Source of the DNA: a bacterium BMS3Abin08
GTDB lineage: Bacteria > Nitrospirota > Thermodesulfovibrionia > Thermodesulfovibrionales > JdFR-85
NCBI GenBank assembly: GCA_002897935.1
Contig: BDTA01000105.1
Coordinates: 1-59,216 of the forward strand
Length of the DNA: 59,216 nucleotides
Reading direction: 5' to 3'
Shown: positions 1-55,986 of the stretch, piece after piece
How positions within the stretch are numbered: position 1 is the stretch's first letter
Layout: every line of letters begins with the position of its first letter
Notes under the pieces: model-generated
Seen by the model: only the letters and a program-made list of their open reading frames with translations
What the model was told of the DNA's origin: nothing
The model's database searches: none
Translations under genes and position numbers: made by a program

Positions 1-2
1 GT

Positions 3-227
3 ATTACAGACATAATCAAGGAAGAATGTAAAAAGAGGCAGGTAAGTGTCAAAGAACTAAAAGGTGGTAGCCGCCGGAATAAAGTGAGTCAAACCCGTGC
101 ATTAATAGCCTATAGGAGCATAGAGGAATTGGGCTTGTCTACTGCTGAAATAGCCAGACACTTAGGGGTAGCTACGTCCACAGTTACACGTGCAATTGCG
201 CGAGGTGAGAAACTAAATAATGCATAA
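3..227 (+). CDS. C-terminal fragment of an IS200-like (REP-associated type) transposase, cut by the window edge
   Basis: An open frame runs from the first bases of the window to TAA at 225-227, giving 74 residues without a start. The visible part contains a helix-turn-helix-like stretch (ELGLSTAEIARHLGVATSTV) followed by TRAIARGE. This is the DnaA/TrpR-like DNA-binding tail found at the C-terminus of many Y1 tyrosine transposases of the REP-associated IS200 type. The catalytic HUH domain would lie upstream of the window, so the family call rests on the tail only. A decayed copy of its last 114 bp follows at 278-391. It could alternatively be the tail of another HTH protein. Confidence 0.55.
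   Translation: MTDIIKEECKKRQVSVKELKGGSRRNKVSQTRALIAYRSIEELGLSTAEIARHLGVATSTVTRAIARGEKLNNA
101..214 (+). repeat. Direct repeat, copy 1 (3' end of the transposase fragment)
   Basis: From ATTAATAGCCTATAGGAGCA through GCGAGGTGAGA this 114-bp stretch is repeated at 278-391 in the same orientation. About eight mismatches are visible, roughly 93% identity by eye. This copy keeps the open reading frame. Confidence 0.85.
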
Positions 228-277
228 GTTTTGCAAGTTTTGCATAGTGTGTAACAACGTCCCCAACTTTCGTCCGT

Positions 278-391
278 ATTAATAGCCTATAGGAGCATAG
301 AGGAATTGGGTTTGTCTACTGCCGAGATAGCGTGACACTTAGGGGTAGCTTCGTCCACAGTTACACGTGCAATTGCGCGAGGTGAGACACT
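278..391 (+). pseudogene. Decayed direct duplicate of the transposase 3' end
   Basis: This is the second copy of the 101-214 sequence, 63 bp after the first. GCCAGACAC of copy 1 has become GCGTGACAC, putting an in-frame TGA in the helix-turn-helix, so this copy cannot encode the domain. It ends within about five bases of the R1/ISNCY terminus at 396. The layout suggests a partial tandem duplication or a second truncated element later hit by the ISNCY insertion. Confidence 0.75.
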
Positions 392-395
392 AATT

Positions 396-724
396 AGAGT
401 CTGTGTATAAACTCCAACACTATGAAAAATAAGGGAAAATGGTATAATTGCAGGGAAAATCAAAAACAAGGAGGAGAGCTTGAAACTGCTGAATGATTTA
501 AAACTGCAATTTGAGAAAGAATTATGGGCGTTAAACCCGGAGCTGGCGGTGATGGATACCATACTAAGCAATTATCCGGAGATAATAGAGATGATGAAAC
601 AGGAAGTAACGGGCGGGCAAGAGGGCAGCGTATTAGGGAGAAAGGACATGCCGACGGTAGAGCAGATAGTGAGGGCAGCGATCTATAAGGAGATAAAAAA
701 CCTGACCTATCGGGAACTTGAATC
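396..724 (+). mobile_element. Left end of an ISNCY-like insertion sequence, truncated on the right
   Basis: The element appears to start with AGAGTCTGTGTATAAACT at 396-413, followed by about 65 bp of leader and a transposase gene beginning at 480. Homology to a transposase stops near 723, where TATCGGGAACTTGAA gives way to CTCACTTTCCGCACA, which looks like the end of the next element. The terminal sequence equals the terminal inverted repeat of the short R1 elements elsewhere in this window, making this the likely parent of those MITEs. Family assignment is by recall of transposase N-terminal sequence; only about 80 residues are left. Confidence 0.6.
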
Positions 725-782
725 TCACTTTCCGCACATAAAAAAACCACATTTCCCGACTTTTAGCTCTGCAAGCCTTTGA
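480..782 (+). pseudogene. N-terminal fragment of an ISNCY-family transposase
   Basis: The frame starts at TTG 480, four bases behind the Shine-Dalgarno-like AGGAGGAG... GAGC run at 468-479. It encodes about 80 genuine residues (MKLLNDLKLQFEKELW near the start, then GRKDMPTVEQIVRAAIYKEI and LTYRELE). The last roughly 20 residues, after LTYRELE at about 723, come from the adjoining element and are spurious. The catalytic DDE domain is missing, so no active transposase is made. ISNCY transposases begin with this kind of helical region followed by a motif around 'LTYRELE'. The family call is moderately sure and the truncation is certain. Confidence 0.65.
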
Positions 783-845
783 AAACAAAGAATAATATTT
801 TTGGCAATTTGGGCTTTCAGCGTACCTGACTCATATTTTATACCA

Positions 846-1238
846 TTAAGCAGGTTTTTTAGTAAAATAGTTTCTCAAATTTTCTGTTTTTTGTATTAAC
901 TTTTCTTCCTCTAAATCCAACAATTTTCTTTCTTCATCAGTGAGTTTTCTTATCTTGGATCTCAGGGTTCTCCATTGTTTATAGTTGCCAGTCATCTCCT
1001 TAATCCACGGAATGTCCTCTTTGGGGATAGCTTTTGATCGTGACCTTCCATCTTTTGTCCAACTAATCTGGTAACTGGGATGCCCTTCGACCTCTTTCGC
1101 ACACCGGCAATTCGGTTTTCCGCATTTACGATGGGTCTGGACATATGTCCCCCTGATCATCTTTTTAATCGTCTTTAACTGTCTGATCAACCTGGATTTT
1201 TCTGTTTCCAGTTTTTTATATTGCTTGAATGTTGACAT
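846..1238 (-). CDS. DUF6788-like accessory protein of an IS1634-type element
   Basis: 130 residues. The N-terminal helix is basic and probably coiled coil (residues 1-28). A cysteine cluster (C39, C44, C46 in HRKCGKPNCRC) may bind a metal. Then comes a short beta motif (GHPSYQISWTKDGRSRS) and a second helical region rich in K and E. This layout matches the DUF6788 family, small proteins usually found beside transposases; their biochemical role is unknown to me. The gene diverges from the IS1634 transposase fragment at 1268. Both start codons lie inside one 43-bp palindrome, with a perfect TTGACA / 17 bp / TATACT promoter and no room for a leader. A related accessory ORF sits in the ISKra4 element at 54318. 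Confidence is high for the gene and moderate for the family. Confidence 0.75.
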   Translation of the reverse strand: MSTFKQYKKLETEKSRLIRQLKTIKKMIRGTYVQTHRKCGKPNCRCAKEVEGHPSYQISWTKDGRSRSKAIPKEDIPWIKEMTGNYKQWRTLRSKIRKLTDEERKLLDLEEEKLIQKTENLRNYFTKKPA

Positions 1239-1274
1239 CTGTAGCAGTATAGACTATACTGCTACAGATGTCAA
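1232..1274. promoter_or_regulatory. 43-bp perfect palindrome carrying two overlapping divergent promoters and two start codons
   Basis: The arms 1232-1252 and 1254-1274 are exact reverse complements around a single A at 1253. On the plus strand TTGACA (1232-1237), a 17-bp spacer and TATACT (1255-1260) lead to ATG at 1268, 7 bp past the -10. By symmetry the minus strand has TTGACA (1274-1269), 17 bp and TATACT (1251-1246), leading to ATG at 1238. Each -35 box overlaps the start codon of the opposite gene. The expected transcription starts fall at or next to the A of each ATG, so both mRNAs should be leaderless. A palindrome of this kind can also be a dimer operator. Confidence 0.85.
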
Positions 1275-1813
1275 GGGATTATGATACAATTACCCGCCTA
1301 CAGGTAGGTGAGATGCCGCTCATCAGAAAAGTCATTGAGCAGTTGCATCTTAAGGATATCTTATTGAAATATATTAAGCCCCATAAAAAAGAGTCCATCC
1401 CGGCCGTAGACTCTCTGTTGATCCTATTGTTTAATATCACTATCAGCAGACAGCCTCTATATGAAATAGAGCAATGGGTTGAACGAATAGACCCAAAGGT
1501 TTTTGGATACAAGTTTTTCAAAAAAGGGGTGATAAATGATGACCGGTTTGGCAGAGCATTGTACAAACTTTACCTGCCAGACAGAGCGTCAATGATGACC
1601 GATATTGTTCTTTCCATGATAAAATTTACAGGCATTGATTTAAGCCGGGTGCATAACGATTCCACAACGGTAAAGGCATACGGAGAAATCCCGGGCAGGA
1701 CGCGTACGGGGTTAAAGCTCGCACAAGGTCACAGCAAAGATCACCGTCCGGATCTGAAGCAAATTGTATATTCATTATCCGTATCGGCAGACGGGACTGT
1801 CCCTGTTCATTAA
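1268..1813 (+). pseudogene. IS1634-family transposase, N-terminal part, 3' truncated by an IS200-type insertion
   Basis: 181 residues resemble the N-terminal third of IS1634-type DDE transposases: a helical start (MPLIRKVIEQLHLKDILL), then GVINDDRFGRALYKLYLPDR, then the first catalytic aspartate context VHNDSTTVKAYGE (D131). The usual length is about 450-550 residues. Translation stops after SADGTVPVH, the point where IS1634 proteins continue into the catalytic core. The palindromic left end of the IS200-like element begins there. I see no 3' half of this transposase on the far side of the IS200-type element, so the interruption came with a deletion. The start at 1268 is fixed by the palindromic promoter. 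Non-functional. Confidence 0.75.
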
Positions 1814-2420
1814 ACGGTCTATACCACCTATGAAATAGGTGGTGGGGCGTGGGGGCAGAGGCCCCACACCGAATATGTCCACCAACAAGGTTGGTGGGGA
1901 TAAGGGCAATATGATAGAAATCCGATATGGAACGATATCAAAAGACTGCGCATGTAGTATACCAATGCAAATATCATTTTGTGTGGGTACCGAAATATAG
2001 ATTTCGAATATTAGAGGAAGAGATAAAAGAGGATTCGCAGAGGATAATGGAGCAACTATGTAACTGGAAGGGTTTCACAATAATGCAGGGGAGCATACAG
2101 CGTGACCATGTGCATCTGTATTTGTCGGTACCACCGAAATATTCACCATCAGATGTAATGAGGATACTAAAAGGGAAGAGTGCAGAGCGAATAATGAGAA
2201 AGCATAAGGAGTTGAATAAGAGATACAGGGGGATGCACATGTGGGCAAGAGGATATTTTGTAAGCACGGTTGGAATAGACGAAGGAACGATAAAGAAATA
2301 CATAGCAGAGCAGGAAGCTGAAGAAATTAAAGAAGAACAGCAAAGATTGTGGAAATAGAAAGTGCGTAGCACTATTTTTTTCAAAGCCACCGACAAGGTC
2401 GGTGGTCGTTTACTTTTAAA
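1814..2420 (+). mobile_element. IS200/IS605-type insertion sequence, apparently intact
   Basis: The element is bounded by subterminal hairpins rather than inverted repeats, as in IS200/IS605. Left: ACCACCTAT-gaa-ATAGGTGGT (1823-1843) and CCACCAAC-aag-GTTGGTGG (about 1879-1897). Right: CCACCGAC-aag-GTCGGTGG (2387-2405). It encodes a single tnpA and no tnpB. AGTGC-GTA-GCACT plus a T run (about 2361-2382) looks like a terminator for tnpA. Exact cleavage sites cannot be fixed by eye. It sits inside the IS1634 fragment. Confidence 0.75.
1927..2358 (+). CDS. tnpA: IS200/IS605-family transposase TnpA (Y1 HUH tyrosine transposase)
   Basis: 143 residues, the usual length for this family. It acts on single-stranded DNA, cutting and joining at sites recognised through subterminal hairpins. 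The HUH metal-binding motif is visible as H61-V-H63 (DHVHLYLSVP), preceded by the typical YHFVWVPKYR. The nucleophile is most likely Y125 (TIKKYIAEQ). Start ATG 1927 follows a weak purine-rich stretch (AGAAATCCGAT). The protein is complete and the flanking hairpins are preserved, so the element may still be active. No accessory gene is present. Confidence 0.9.
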   Translation: MERYQKTAHVVYQCKYHFVWVPKYRFRILEEEIKEDSQRIMEQLCNWKGFTIMQGSIQRDHVHLYLSVPPKYSPSDVMRILKGKSAERIMRKHKELNKRYRGMHMWARGYFVSTVGIDEGTIKKYIAEQEAEEIKEEQQRLWK

Positions 2421-2677
2421 GCTGCCTTTCATTCCCGCTCACAGTGCGTATTCAGGCGGCAGCCTCGTAAAACCTGAAGTGAACGGTTTATAATATAAAA
2501 TCTGGCAAAACACGGGGGTCTGGTGGTTTTTAGAAGGCGCCGATGGTTACACGTTGGGTGAAAGAGGTCCATGTCTTGTCTGCGGACAGGATTCGCTGTA
2601 ATGACAAACCGGACGTCCTCAGGTAAAGAATCACTCAACTCAGGTAAAATGATAATGAACAGACAGGGGACTTGGAG
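2421..2677. other. Intergenic stretch between the IS cluster and cimA
   Basis: No open frame looks coding here. A TATAAT hexamer at about 2490-2495 has no good -35 box 16-18 bp upstream. No remnant of the IS1634 3' half can be recognised. Confidence 0.5.
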
Positions 2678-4267
2678 ATGAAAAAATTGGAGATATACGA
2701 TACAACACTGAGGGATGGTTCACAATCCGAAGAGATTAACTTTTCAGTTGAGGACAAACTGAGAATTACCGAACGCCTTGACGATTTCGGTATCCATTTT
2801 ATTGAGGGTGGGTGGCCGGGGACCAACCCGAAGGACAGTGAGTACTTCAGAAAGGTCAGGCGGTTGGATCTGCGGAGTTCCAGGATTGTGGCGTTTGGCA
2901 GTACTCACAGGGCAGGTATCAAGGCAGAGAGGGACCCGAACCTGAGGGCGCTCCTTGATACCGAAACAGGAGTGGTAACAGTTTTTGGAAAGTCCTGGGA
3001 TTTCCAGGTCAAACATGCACTGAGAATCGATCTGGAAAAGAACATCGAGATCATAAACAACAGCGTTGCCTATCTTAAACCCAGACTCGATATGGTCTTT
3101 TTTGATGCCGAACACTTCTTTGACGGCTATAAGAGCATGCCTGAATATGCAACGGCATGTCTCAGGGCAGCGGTGGAGGGTGGTGCGGACAGGATAGTCC
3201 TGTGTGATACGAATGGTGGTACATTGCCGGAGGAGATAAGAAAGATTACAGTTAGAGTCAAAGCGGACCTTAAATCGGTCCTCGGTATTCACGCCCACAA
3301 TGATTCTGATTGTGCGGTAGCAAATACATTAATAGCGGTGAGGGCCGGGGCGGTTCAGGTTCAGGGGACCATTAACGGTATCGGCGAACGCTGTGGAAAT
3401 GCCAACCTGTGTTCAATAATACCCGCCCTGCAGTTGAAGATGGGGATGCACTGTATATCAGACAATCAACTGCATAAGCTGAGAGAGGTTTCGAGGTTTG
3501 TTAACGAGATTGCAAATGTCAGGCATTTTAACCGCCAGCCTTATGTGGGGGACAGCGCCTTTGCACATAAAGGGGGTATACACGTGTCCGCCGTATCGAG
3601 AAAAAGCGAAACCTACGAGCATATCGATCCCGAACTTGTTGGAAATTCAAGGAGGGTGCTGATATCAGACCTTGCAGGGAAGAGCAACATACTCAGGAAG
3701 GCGGAGCAGTTTGATTTACATATCGAAAAAGACTCCCCTCAGCTTCTGGATATACTCTCTACGCTCAAGGAACTTGAGAATCAGGGGTTTCAGTTCGAGG
3801 CAGCCGAGGCATCCTTTGAGCTGCTGATGAAGAAGACGCTCGGGCTCCACAGGAGGTTCTTTGACTTACAGGGATTCAGGGTGATAGTGGATAAGAGAAG
3901 GGAAGGGGAGGACCCAATAAGCGAGGCCACGATAATGGTAAAGGTTGGTGGACACGTTGAGCATACCGCCTCAATCGGCAGCGGTCCTGTCAATGCCCTC
4001 GATAATGCCCTCAGGAAGGCCCTTGAGAAGTTCTATCCTGAACTAAGGTCGGTCAAACTCCTTGATTACAAGGTGCGCGTTCTTGCCGCTGGTAAGGGGA
4101 CCTCTGCAAAGGTACGTGTCCTGGTGGAGTCGGGGGATGGTGATCTCAGGTGGGGTACTGTCGGTGTGAGTGAAAACATCATCGAGGCCTCCTGGCAGGC
4201 CCTTGTTGATAGTATAGAGTATAAACTCTTGCGAATGGAGGAGGAGGGGGTTGCCGGAGAGGCCTAA
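2678..4267 (+). CDS. cimA: (R)-citramalate synthase
   Basis: 529 residues from ATG 2678. This ATG is preferred over TTG 2672 because AGGGGA at 2665-2670 is 7 bp away from it but only 1 bp from the TTG. The enzyme condenses pyruvate and acetyl-CoA to citramalate, the first step of the threonine-independent route to 2-oxobutyrate and isoleucine. The N-terminal DRE-TIM barrel shows [14 protein letters not shown] (residues about 7-20), [16 protein letters not shown] and [24 protein letters not shown] lies near the middle and a LeuA regulatory-like domain forms the C-terminus. The length suits the CimA/LeuA2 branch rather than LeuA. It overlaps the convergent membrane-protein gene by 4 bp. The close paralogue 2-isopropylmalate synthase is less likely because of the [11 protein letters not shown] start and full length. 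Confidence 0.9.
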
Positions 4268-54194: not shown

Positions 54195-54276
54195 TCTAAT
54201 AATCTGCGTCCTGGCACAGGGCCTGCGACATGAAAGTGGGTATGAGGGAAAAAGTCTTTTTTTTCTCGTTAAAGTT

Positions 54277-54293
54277 GTAGTATAATATACTAC
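54277..54293. promoter_or_regulatory. Palindrome centred on the -10 of the ISKra4 genes
   Basis: GTAGTAT-AAT-ATACTAC contains TATAAT (54281-54286). It echoes the larger palindrome at 1232-1274 (GTAGCAGTAT...ATACTGCTAC), which also controls a DUF6788-type gene. No good -35 box is seen. Confidence 0.55.
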
Positions 54294-54317
54294 ATTTATA
54301 AACCAGGGAGGATAAAA

Positions 54318-54677
54318 ATGACACAACTGCAAGGACTTCGAATCAGACGAGATGAAATTCTTAAAGAAATAACCGCCTTAGAACAGATACGCCGTGGCAG
54401 CGTGGTTGAGCAATTTGTGGAGACTGTTAAGGCGGACGGTTCCAAAGTTCGAAGAGGGCCGTATGCTCTGTATTCCTACAAGGAAAAAAAGAAGACTGTA
54501 TCCAGACGCGTGAGCAACCCTGAACTGGTAAAGGTCTACCGCAAACAAATCAAGGCGTTTCGGCGTTATCAGGAGCTTAGTGCAGAGCTGATCTGTATTG
54601 GAGAAAAGATAAGCGATATGATTATCTCAGAAGGAGATGATAAAAAAAACAGCAGAAGTCGTTATCGAACAAGATAA
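54318..54677 (+). CDS. DUF6788-like accessory protein of the ISKra4 element
   Basis: 119 residues, start ATG 54318 behind AGGGAGG. N-terminal helix (LRIRRDEILKEITALEQIRRGSVV), short strand-rich middle (RRGPYALYSYKEKKKTVSRRV) and helical C-terminus (YRKQIKAFRRYQELSAELICI). Same order of parts as the protein at 846-1238, but without the cysteine cluster. It overlaps the transposase start by 41 bp in another frame; an A8 run (54642-54649) lies in the overlap. Role unknown, possibly a DNA-binding helper or regulator of transposition. Confidence 0.75.
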   Translation: MTQLQGLRIRRDEILKEITALEQIRRGSVVEQFVETVKADGSKVRRGPYALYSYKEKKKTVSRRVSNPELVKVYRKQIKAFRRYQELSAELICIGEKISDMIISEGDDKKNSRSRYRTR

Positions 54678-55986
54678 AGAAGTAAGCCGGATTCTGCAGA
54701 AAGCGGCTCAGCAAAAGCATAGTGATCTTGAGTCATGGGAGGGGGCGATTCGGGCAGCAGTTCTGAGAGCTGGAGCCAAGGCGCTGGGCGAATTGATTTG
54801 GGGTATTGGCTGTGGTAGGCGAGAGGCTCCGATGAAGTGTTCATGTGGAGCGACAATGGACGGTAAAGGGCTAAAGGGAAAGACTTTATTGACAATTTTG
54901 GGGCCTGTTGAATACCGTCGATCGATGTTTGAATGTCCGATTTGCGGGCAGAGCCGATACCCTGGAGATGAAGAATTAGATGTGGTGGGTACAATGCGAT
55001 CCCCTGGCCTGCGCAGAATGATGGCACGTGCGGGAAGTCGTAATACGTTCAAGGATGGCTGTGAGGACCTGAGAGTCTATGCTGGAATAAACGTCAGCGC
55101 CAAGGAGGTAGAGAGAGTGGCTGAAAGAATCGGAGAAGACATGGAGCAGTGGTCAAAGCGTCAGCGCCAGGATATCCTGCGGCAGGAAGAGCCGGTGAGG
55201 AAGGGGGAAGACATTTCGATAATCTACGTATGTACAGACGGCACCGGCGTACCGATGACCAAGACCGAGCTTCAGGGGCGTAAAGGCAAACATACTGATG
55301 GATCAGCCAAAACCCGGGAGGTCAAGCTCGGATGCGTGTTCACTCAAACCAGCACTGATTCAAAAGGATTTCCTGTGCGTGATCCTGACTCGACGAGTTT
55401 TGCAGGAGCAATAGAGACGGCGGAACAATTTGGCTGGCGAATTTATACTGAAGCTATACGCAGGGAACTGGACAATGCAAAACGGGTCGTGGTTTTGGGC
55501 GATGCTGCGGCGTGGATCAAGAACCTGACCGATATGCACTTCCCCGGAGCGACTCAGATCATTGACCTTTATCATGCCCGCCAGCACGTTTCCGACCTGT
55601 GCAAGATACTGTTTGCTCCAGATGAAAAAAAGGTGGCACAAAACCGTATCCGTTTTTGGAGCCTGCTTGATGAAGGTCGGATAGAAATAATTGTTCAGCG
55701 AGCCCTCAAGAAACTTCCCAAAAACCCTGATGCAAAAAAGAAGGCCGAACAGGAAATCGCCTATTTGCAGAAAAACAAAGAGCGAATGCGCTATGCCGGC
55801 TATCGTGCTGACGGTCTTTTTGTAGGCTCTGGCGTGGTTGAAGCTGGATGTAAGACAGTGATCGGTAAACGATTGAAACACTCTGGCATGGAATGGTCAG
55901 TCCGTGGCGCTAACGCCATTATCGCTTTGCGTTGCATGATGAAATCCGGTCGCTTTGAGGACTACTGGGAAGATCGTGTTGCCTGA
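54637..55986 (+). CDS. ISKra4-family transposase
   Basis: 449 residues, full length for the family. Likely DDE residues: D201 (VCTDGTGVPM), D289 (VVLGDAAAWI) and E402 (GSGVVEAGCK). Paired cysteines near the N-terminus (C68/C70 and C100/C103: MKCSCGA..FECPICGQ) form a probable zinc finger. It is in the +1 frame relative to the accessory ORF, starts at ATG 54637 directly after AGAAGGAG, and ends 5 bp before the right inverted repeat. Codons and stop are intact, so the enzyme is probably functional. Confidence 0.93.
   Translation: MIKKTAEVVIEQDKEVSRILQKAAQQKHSDLESWEGAIRAAVLRAGAKALGELIWGIGCGRREAPMKCSCGATMDGKGLKGKTLLTILGPVEYRRSMFECPICGQSRYPGDEELDVVGTMRSPGLRRMMARAGSRNTFKDGCEDLRVYAGINVSAKEVERVAERIGEDMEQWSKRQRQDILRQEEPVRKGEDISIIYVCTDGTGVPMTKTELQGRKGKHTDGSAKTREVKLGCVFTQTSTDSKGFPVRDPDSTSFAGAIETAEQFGWRIYTEAIRRELDNAKRVVVLGDAAAWIKNLTDMHFPGATQIIDLYHARQHVSDLCKILFAPDEKKVAQNRIRFWSLLDEGRIEIIVQRALKKLPKNPDAKKKAEQEIAYLQKNKERMRYAGYRADGLFVGSGVVEAGCKTVIGKRLKHSGMEWSVRGANAIIALRCMMKSGRFEDYWEDRVA

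Follow-up and report, generated by a model that had tools for sequence, protein, structure and literature searches.

A 43-bp palindrome combining two divergent promoters with a candidate DUF6788 operator in an IS1634-family element

Introduction

A perfect 43-bp palindrome lies between two divergent genes on contig BDTA01000105.1 of BMS3Abin08, a bacterium of the Nitrospirota; the stretch of that contig analysed here, 59,216 nucleotides long, is termed the window. The palindrome separates a DUF6788 gene on its left from an IS1634-type transposase gene on its right, inside one IS1634 element. Why is the site symmetric throughout, and what might read it? A preliminary description took it for two overlapping divergent promoters with leaderless starts, whose competition for polymerase would tie the two genes together in a mutually exclusive, dose-locked way, and added in an aside that a dimeric DUF6788 protein could use it as an operator.

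Several known systems offer themselves for comparison. In Tn10 an element-encoded dimeric repressor acts at a palindromic operator lying across two divergent, overlapping promoters, one for the repressor and one for its target (tetR-tetO-tetA). IS10 and IS50 are protected from read-through by an inverted repeat at the transposase start that acts in RNA. Bacterial bidirectional promoters, as treated in passages of PMC10268837 and PMC12825309 (Warman et al.), are symmetric DNA on which polymerase can bind either way, one binding excluding the other. We describe the palindrome and its element, compare related loci, and weigh the readings that result.

The element in the window

The DUF6788 gene (846–1238, minus strand) is intact. 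Its 130-aa product matches PF20586 (E 1e-18; 67.7 bits against a gathering threshold of 27.2), and alignment and model agree on a putative zinc-knuckle motif, C39-x4-C44-x-C46...H53. The transposase gene (1268–1813, plus strand) encodes only the N-terminal 181 aa, which match PF14104 (E 3e-13) and are 91% identical to the transposase of a relative, locus L035. Full-length transposases of L035 and of a second relative, L036, score 247 and 239 bits with NCBIfam NF033559 (IS1634), well over its cut-off of 100, and this places the window fragment in the IS1634 family. The gene identities given in the preliminary description were correct; the truncation was not mentioned there. An IS200/IS605-type element (1814–2408), carrying a Y1 transposase gene (1927–2358, plus strand), is inserted in the IS1634 transposase gene directly after TTCAT and ends its reading frame. 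The downstream part of the transposase was not found in the window beyond this insertion, and its absence implies a deletion or rearrangement during or after the insertion event. Because the transposase is cut after codon 181 and the remainder is absent, the window copy is a dead element, a relic with no working transposase left to regulate.

Only one end of the element is retained, the terminal inverted repeat on the DUF6788 side (724–736). It reads CTCACTTTCCGCA, with one mismatch to the CCCACTTTCCGCA of L035 and L036, and these repeats have the form C-----YT that passages of PMC2266710 give for IS1634. A transposase-like reading frame without a Pfam match (480–782) is apparently interrupted by this repeat at 724. 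Further left is a 119-bp direct repeat (101–219 and 278–396; 93% identical, 177 bp from start to start) that codes for a helix-turn-helix-like tail, AEIARHLGVATSTVTRAIARGE.

The palindrome and its promoters

The palindrome (1232–1274) consists of arms of 21 bp (1232–1252 and 1254–1274) that are 100% complementary around a single central A. No other perfect inverted repeat in the window comes near it in length, the next-longest having arms of 12 bp, and in shuffled windows the longest arms reached only 8–10 bp. No further copy was found in its own genome, where the site is unique. An assembly artefact or inverted duplication was ruled out because the symmetric site recurs in independent MAGs of other phyla.

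Each strand carries a complete promoter by scoring. On the plus strand, the predicted transposase promoter has TTGACA at 1232–1237, a 17-bp spacer, TATACT at 1255–1260 and, after 7 bp, the ATG at 1268; on the minus strand, the predicted DUF6788 promoter has TTGACA at 1274–1269, again 17 bp, TATACT at 1251–1246 and, after 7 bp, the ATG at 1238–1236. These are the top two sigma-70-like matches in 1–3000, each with 11 of 12 consensus bases, and each -35 box overlaps the start codon of the opposing gene. The symmetry, the spacings and the overlap are thus all as the preliminary description had them. Within the palindrome, motif comparison marks out a putative operator core, TCTG-N23-CAGA (1238–1268), which is common to DUF6788 genes of other IS families.

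Relatives in IS1634 elements

A genome scan with the DUF6788 alignment gave 80 loci. Symmetry and spacing had been expected to persist in homologous loci if the preliminary description was right, and they do in L035 and L036, and for the arms in L037. Locus L035, in a Spirochaetia MAG (2427–3227), has 91% DNA identity over 801 bp and keeps the palindrome; it differs by five changes, among which one symmetric pair turns both -10 boxes from TATACT into TATAAT. Such identity between a Spirochaetia MAG and the genome of the window would mean either recent cross-phylum transfer or MAG contamination. L036, in an Ignavibacteria MAG, reads TTGACA-17-TATATT-8-ATG on both strands, and the 17/7–8 geometry is therefore common to L035 and L036. 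The DUF6788 proteins of L036 and L037 are ∼35% identical; TTGACATCTG...CAGATGTCAA is kept at the same place in both loci, and also in L035, and L037 likewise retains the palindromic arms. Among more distant divergent pairs, L163 keeps interleaved promoters with another palindrome, CTTGACATGGTATTAT...ATAATACCATGTCAAG; L159/L170 and L162/L175 keep them with other palindromes again, and L167 has overlapping promoters with no palindrome.

Two of these loci are complete elements. In L036 the divergent gene pair lies between CCCACTTTCCGCA repeats at 1216 and 3441, and L167 likewise has both genes within CCCACTTTCCGCA ends; each element is flanked by a 6-bp target duplication (TTATAA and GTTAAA, respectively), within the 5–6 bp of IS1634. 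Because terminal repeats and duplications flank both genes, DUF6788 is an internal gene of these IS1634 elements. It thus resembles the passenger genes within the terminal repeats of IS231-type elements (passages of PMC2266710) and of the ISAzba1/ISKra4 group (passages of PMC3942029), neither set of passages mentioning a DUF6788 gene. The passages of PMC2266710 give IS1634 a size of 1.5–2.0 kb and passenger modules to one IS4 subgroup only, unlike L036, which measures 2.2 kb with DUF6788 inside.

In the few IS1634 elements found with no DUF6788 gene nearby (L023, L025–L027, L169) there was no comparable palindrome. Three related IS1634 elements, also with no DUF6788 gene nearby (L024, L028, L033), have TCTGA...GATTTAATG...CTCGACAGA upstream of the transposase; this site is not palindromic inside its ends and may be eroded or due to chance. 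Close relatives were absent from the phylum sample and from plasmids, and DUF6788 relatives were absent from phages, with a single distant one in viral contigs. Viral copies of the site were rejected: viral contigs gave 41 matches to GACATCTG-N20..28-CAGATGTC, about the chance level, and 0 lay near a DUF6788 gene.

Start sites

With the ATG 7 bp after the -10 box on both strands there is no room for a ribosome site, and L035 and L036 keep this ATG-next-to-promoter geometry. The predicted RNA starts accordingly coincide with the two ATGs or directly adjoin them, at 1268 for the transposase and at 1238 for DUF6788. The leaderless starts proposed earlier fit the geometry on the DUF6788 side (the window, L035, L036, L037, L163 and some non-IS1634 loci) and fit less generally for the transposase, whose start in L037 and L163 lies farther downstream, preceded by a possible ribosome site; L159 and L167 appear to have leaders.

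A core shared across IS families

Most DUF6788 genes lie outside IS1634 and precede a transposase gene in the same direction, the transposase being of ISKra4, IS4-like or, once, ISL3-like type. Upstream of the DUF6788 gene, 41 of the 77 loci carry the motif TCTG-N14..25-CAGA, compared with 1.4 on average and at most 7 in 300 dinucleotide shuffles, although the loci are related by ancestry and such shuffle figures, like the Fisher value given below, overstate independence for that reason. Control windows of the same contigs contain it in 1.1% of cases. When all 256 four-mers were ranked with their complements, TCTG came first and the next had 19. In about half of the canonical DUF6788 loci, the stretch searched contains no TCTG palindrome.

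The core has two main spacings. With the short spacing (15–18 bp), a ribosome site and the start codon usually come after the repeat, in that order; with the long spacing (23–25 bp), which includes IS1634, it is usual for CAGA to abut or overlap the start codon. Two discrete operator spacings thus track two start architectures. In the best-scoring promoter the -10 box usually coincides with the centre of the operator or lies immediately 5′ to it, and TCTG palindromes are equally common at one-way DUF6788 promoters. The inner bases of the arms vary among loci and still pair within a locus: complementarity is 70% between a locus's own arms and 32% across loci, and the cross-locus value never exceeded 42% in 2000 shuffles. 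Such covariation would be expected if a reader with two-fold symmetry recognised a palindromic site, or if the arms formed a hairpin. The few ISKra4 elements with no DUF6788 gene nearby (L178, L179, L183) had no comparable palindrome. From these comparisons DUF6788 is the common factor of the loci with the core, its neighbours being ISKra4, IS4-like, ISL3-like or IS1634 transposases.

Zinc-knuckle variants

The core also seems to depend on the type of knuckle. DUF6788 proteins with an altered knuckle (CGRSGC, CGRAGC, CGTPGC, CGTTGC, CGQKNC, CNKLGC, or none) have TCTG...CAGA in 0 of 13 loci, compared with 44 of 82 others (Fisher p 1.5e-4, uncorrected for shared ancestry). Another inverted repeat was found in 7 of the 13 (p<=0.05), and L014 and L015 have a palindrome in common, ACCGATAGC...GCTATCGGT. 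The window itself supplies a second, divergent DUF6788 gene (54318–54677, plus strand), detected by profile search; a BLAST-like search of the genome had listed one gene only. Its 119-aa product matches PF20586 (E 2e-12) and lacks the zinc ligands. In front of the gene is a 19-bp palindrome, TGTAGTATAATATACTACA (54276–54294), over a TATAAT, and the end of the gene overlaps the start of an ISKra4-family transposase gene (54637–55986, plus strand). Zinc-knuckle residues and operator letters are thus apparently linked.

Structure of the DUF6788 protein

AlphaFold2 modelling with 73 relatives was confident (pLDDT 95.7). The modelled fold comprises a helix, three beta strands bearing the C39/C44/C46/H53 cluster, and a long C-terminal helix. 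These four putative metal ligands are invariant among the 73 aligned members and are surrounded by the strongly conserved basic residues R37, K38 and K41. Searches of solved structures with the whole protein and with the head alone gave no significant match (no Foldseek hit at E<=0.001), and sequence and fold searches for a known DNA-binding fold likewise returned nothing significant, an absence that proves nothing. The head domain weakly resembles arm-type integrase (Z 2.4–3.1) and AP2 (Z 2.8) domains, which are beta-sheet DNA readers; the best unrelated row reached Z 3.8. Since chemokines and SRP (Alu) proteins match weakly too, as do dsRNA-binding domains, this modelled resemblance is only a lead.

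A model and its alternatives

We propose that an IS1634-family element with its own regulator uses the palindrome as promoter-operator, DUF6788 being a dimeric zinc-knuckle autorepressor that also blocks the transposase promoter; the comparative data make this probable. The earlier aside on a dimeric DUF6788 protein appears to be the best-supported part of the preliminary description. DUF6788 would form a zinc-knuckle head on a helical hairpin, and its dimer would bind two TCTG-ended half-sites on DNA, thereby blocking RNA polymerase at its own promoter. In the IS1634 class the same operator covers the interleaved, divergent transposase promoter, which would be blocked as well. On entry of an element into a new cell both promoters would fire; DUF6788 would then accumulate and shut both, a negative feedback cap that would keep transposition low. 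Element RNA would start at or next to the ATG, and the operator would therefore lie outside the messages. The two promoters would also compete for one stretch of DNA. According to PMC12825309, bidirectional E. coli promoters fire too rarely at their basal level for polymerases to compete, except where one side is strongly activated, and this leaves the dose-locked exclusion advanced earlier without support as such.

Covariation of the arms suits a hairpin as well as an operator, and an RNA device has to be weighed. In IS10/Tn10 a hairpin in read-through RNA buries the start codon; read-through transcripts could fold the present palindrome with the same outcome, or DUF6788 could bind the hairpin and control translation. 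For read-through RNA from either strand, the computed fold has an energy of ∼-32 kcal/mol (z about -7 to -8), and its stem encloses the ATG. Of 42 DUF6788 operator loci, 32 have a sense RNA of higher stability than the antisense RNA, and sense-strand G.T mispairs outnumber A.C in the arms (25 vs 8, p 0.05 against the shuffled ratio), but this strand bias may stem from promoter letters. SRP Alu proteins and dsRNA-binding domains among the weak fold matches also point towards RNA. The elements' own messages, however, would mostly be without one arm and could not form the full stem, because the start of RNA at the best promoters usually falls within the palindrome or at its border; where the spacer is short, the ribosome site is mostly outside the repeat; and a hairpin needs no TCTG and CAGA letters common to different elements. 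We consider an RNA device unlikely and a DNA operator the better reading, while the G.T over A.C bias hints at an RNA layer and leaves room for a second role in RNA.

The palindrome adjoins the start of the transposase, the usual DNA-binding protein of an IS, and might instead be bound by it, for autoregulation or as a subterminal site, with DUF6788 a bystander. This is very improbable given that the core is found with different transposase families and beside DUF6788, that the palindrome is a single internal site unrelated to the terminal repeats CCCACTTTCCGCA, and that the few IS1634 elements seen without DUF6788 have none. We give scarcely any credence to a symmetric bidirectional promoter that has no dedicated protein, its symmetry serving two polymerase sites and matching start codons. 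ATGTCAA is TTGACAT on the opposite strand, so that the opposing -35 box comes for free wherever TCA follows a start codon, and according to passages of PMC10268837 bidirectional promoters do arise through -10 symmetry. The symmetry here runs on, however, through TCTGTAGCAG/CTGCTACAGA, needed by neither promoter box, and the one-way DUF6788 promoters have TCTG palindromes just as often.

Relation to known systems

The operator model shares with Tn10 tetR/tetA a proposed element-borne repressor and a palindromic operator over divergent promoters, and differs in protein family, in having the transposase as target and in lacking a known inducer; here, moreover, a single 43-bp palindrome would be operator, both promoters and both start codons. 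As in IS10 and IS50, the inverted repeat next to the transposase start could bury that start in read-through RNA; unlike theirs, it coincides with two promoters and a conserved core common to other IS families. The bidirectional promoters in passages of PMC10268837 and PMC12825309 have one -10 region in common and starts mostly 18 bp apart, whereas here two full -35/-10 sets interleave between two coding genes and the predicted starts, 1238 and 1268, lie 30 bp apart, outside the 7–25 bp of that class.

By this analogy the overall plan of element-borne repressor, palindromic operator and divergent promoters is already known from Tn10 tetR/tetA. The novelty lies in the family of the regulator and its occurrence in several IS families, in zinc-knuckle residues that apparently go with the operator letters, and in the compression in IS1634. 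Our literature search, whose reach ended short of subscription journals and ISfinder pages, found no mention of DUF6788 and no paper joining IS1634 with leaderless starts.

Biological significance

On balance we favour, a little more cautiously than the operator model for this locus, a broader view in which DUF6788 proteins are widespread transposon-borne zinc-knuckle autorepressors, recruited by several unrelated IS families and co-evolving with their operators under a protein-operator code. CGKPNC would read TCTG, different palindromes would be recognised by different knuckles, and the symmetric sequence of IS1634 would be operator, pair of promoters and pair of start codons at once. A Pfam family of unknown function, travelling with several kinds of IS in many bacterial phyla, thereby gains a testable function and a candidate binding site. 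The matched zinc-knuckle variants and palindromes form a ready data set on how DUF6788 would read DNA. The IS1634 case is one of extreme compression, with proposed operator, divergent promoters and start codons in 43 bp, and the wider distribution suggests that transposons unrelated to one another may each have taken up this small repressor as a brake on their own activity.
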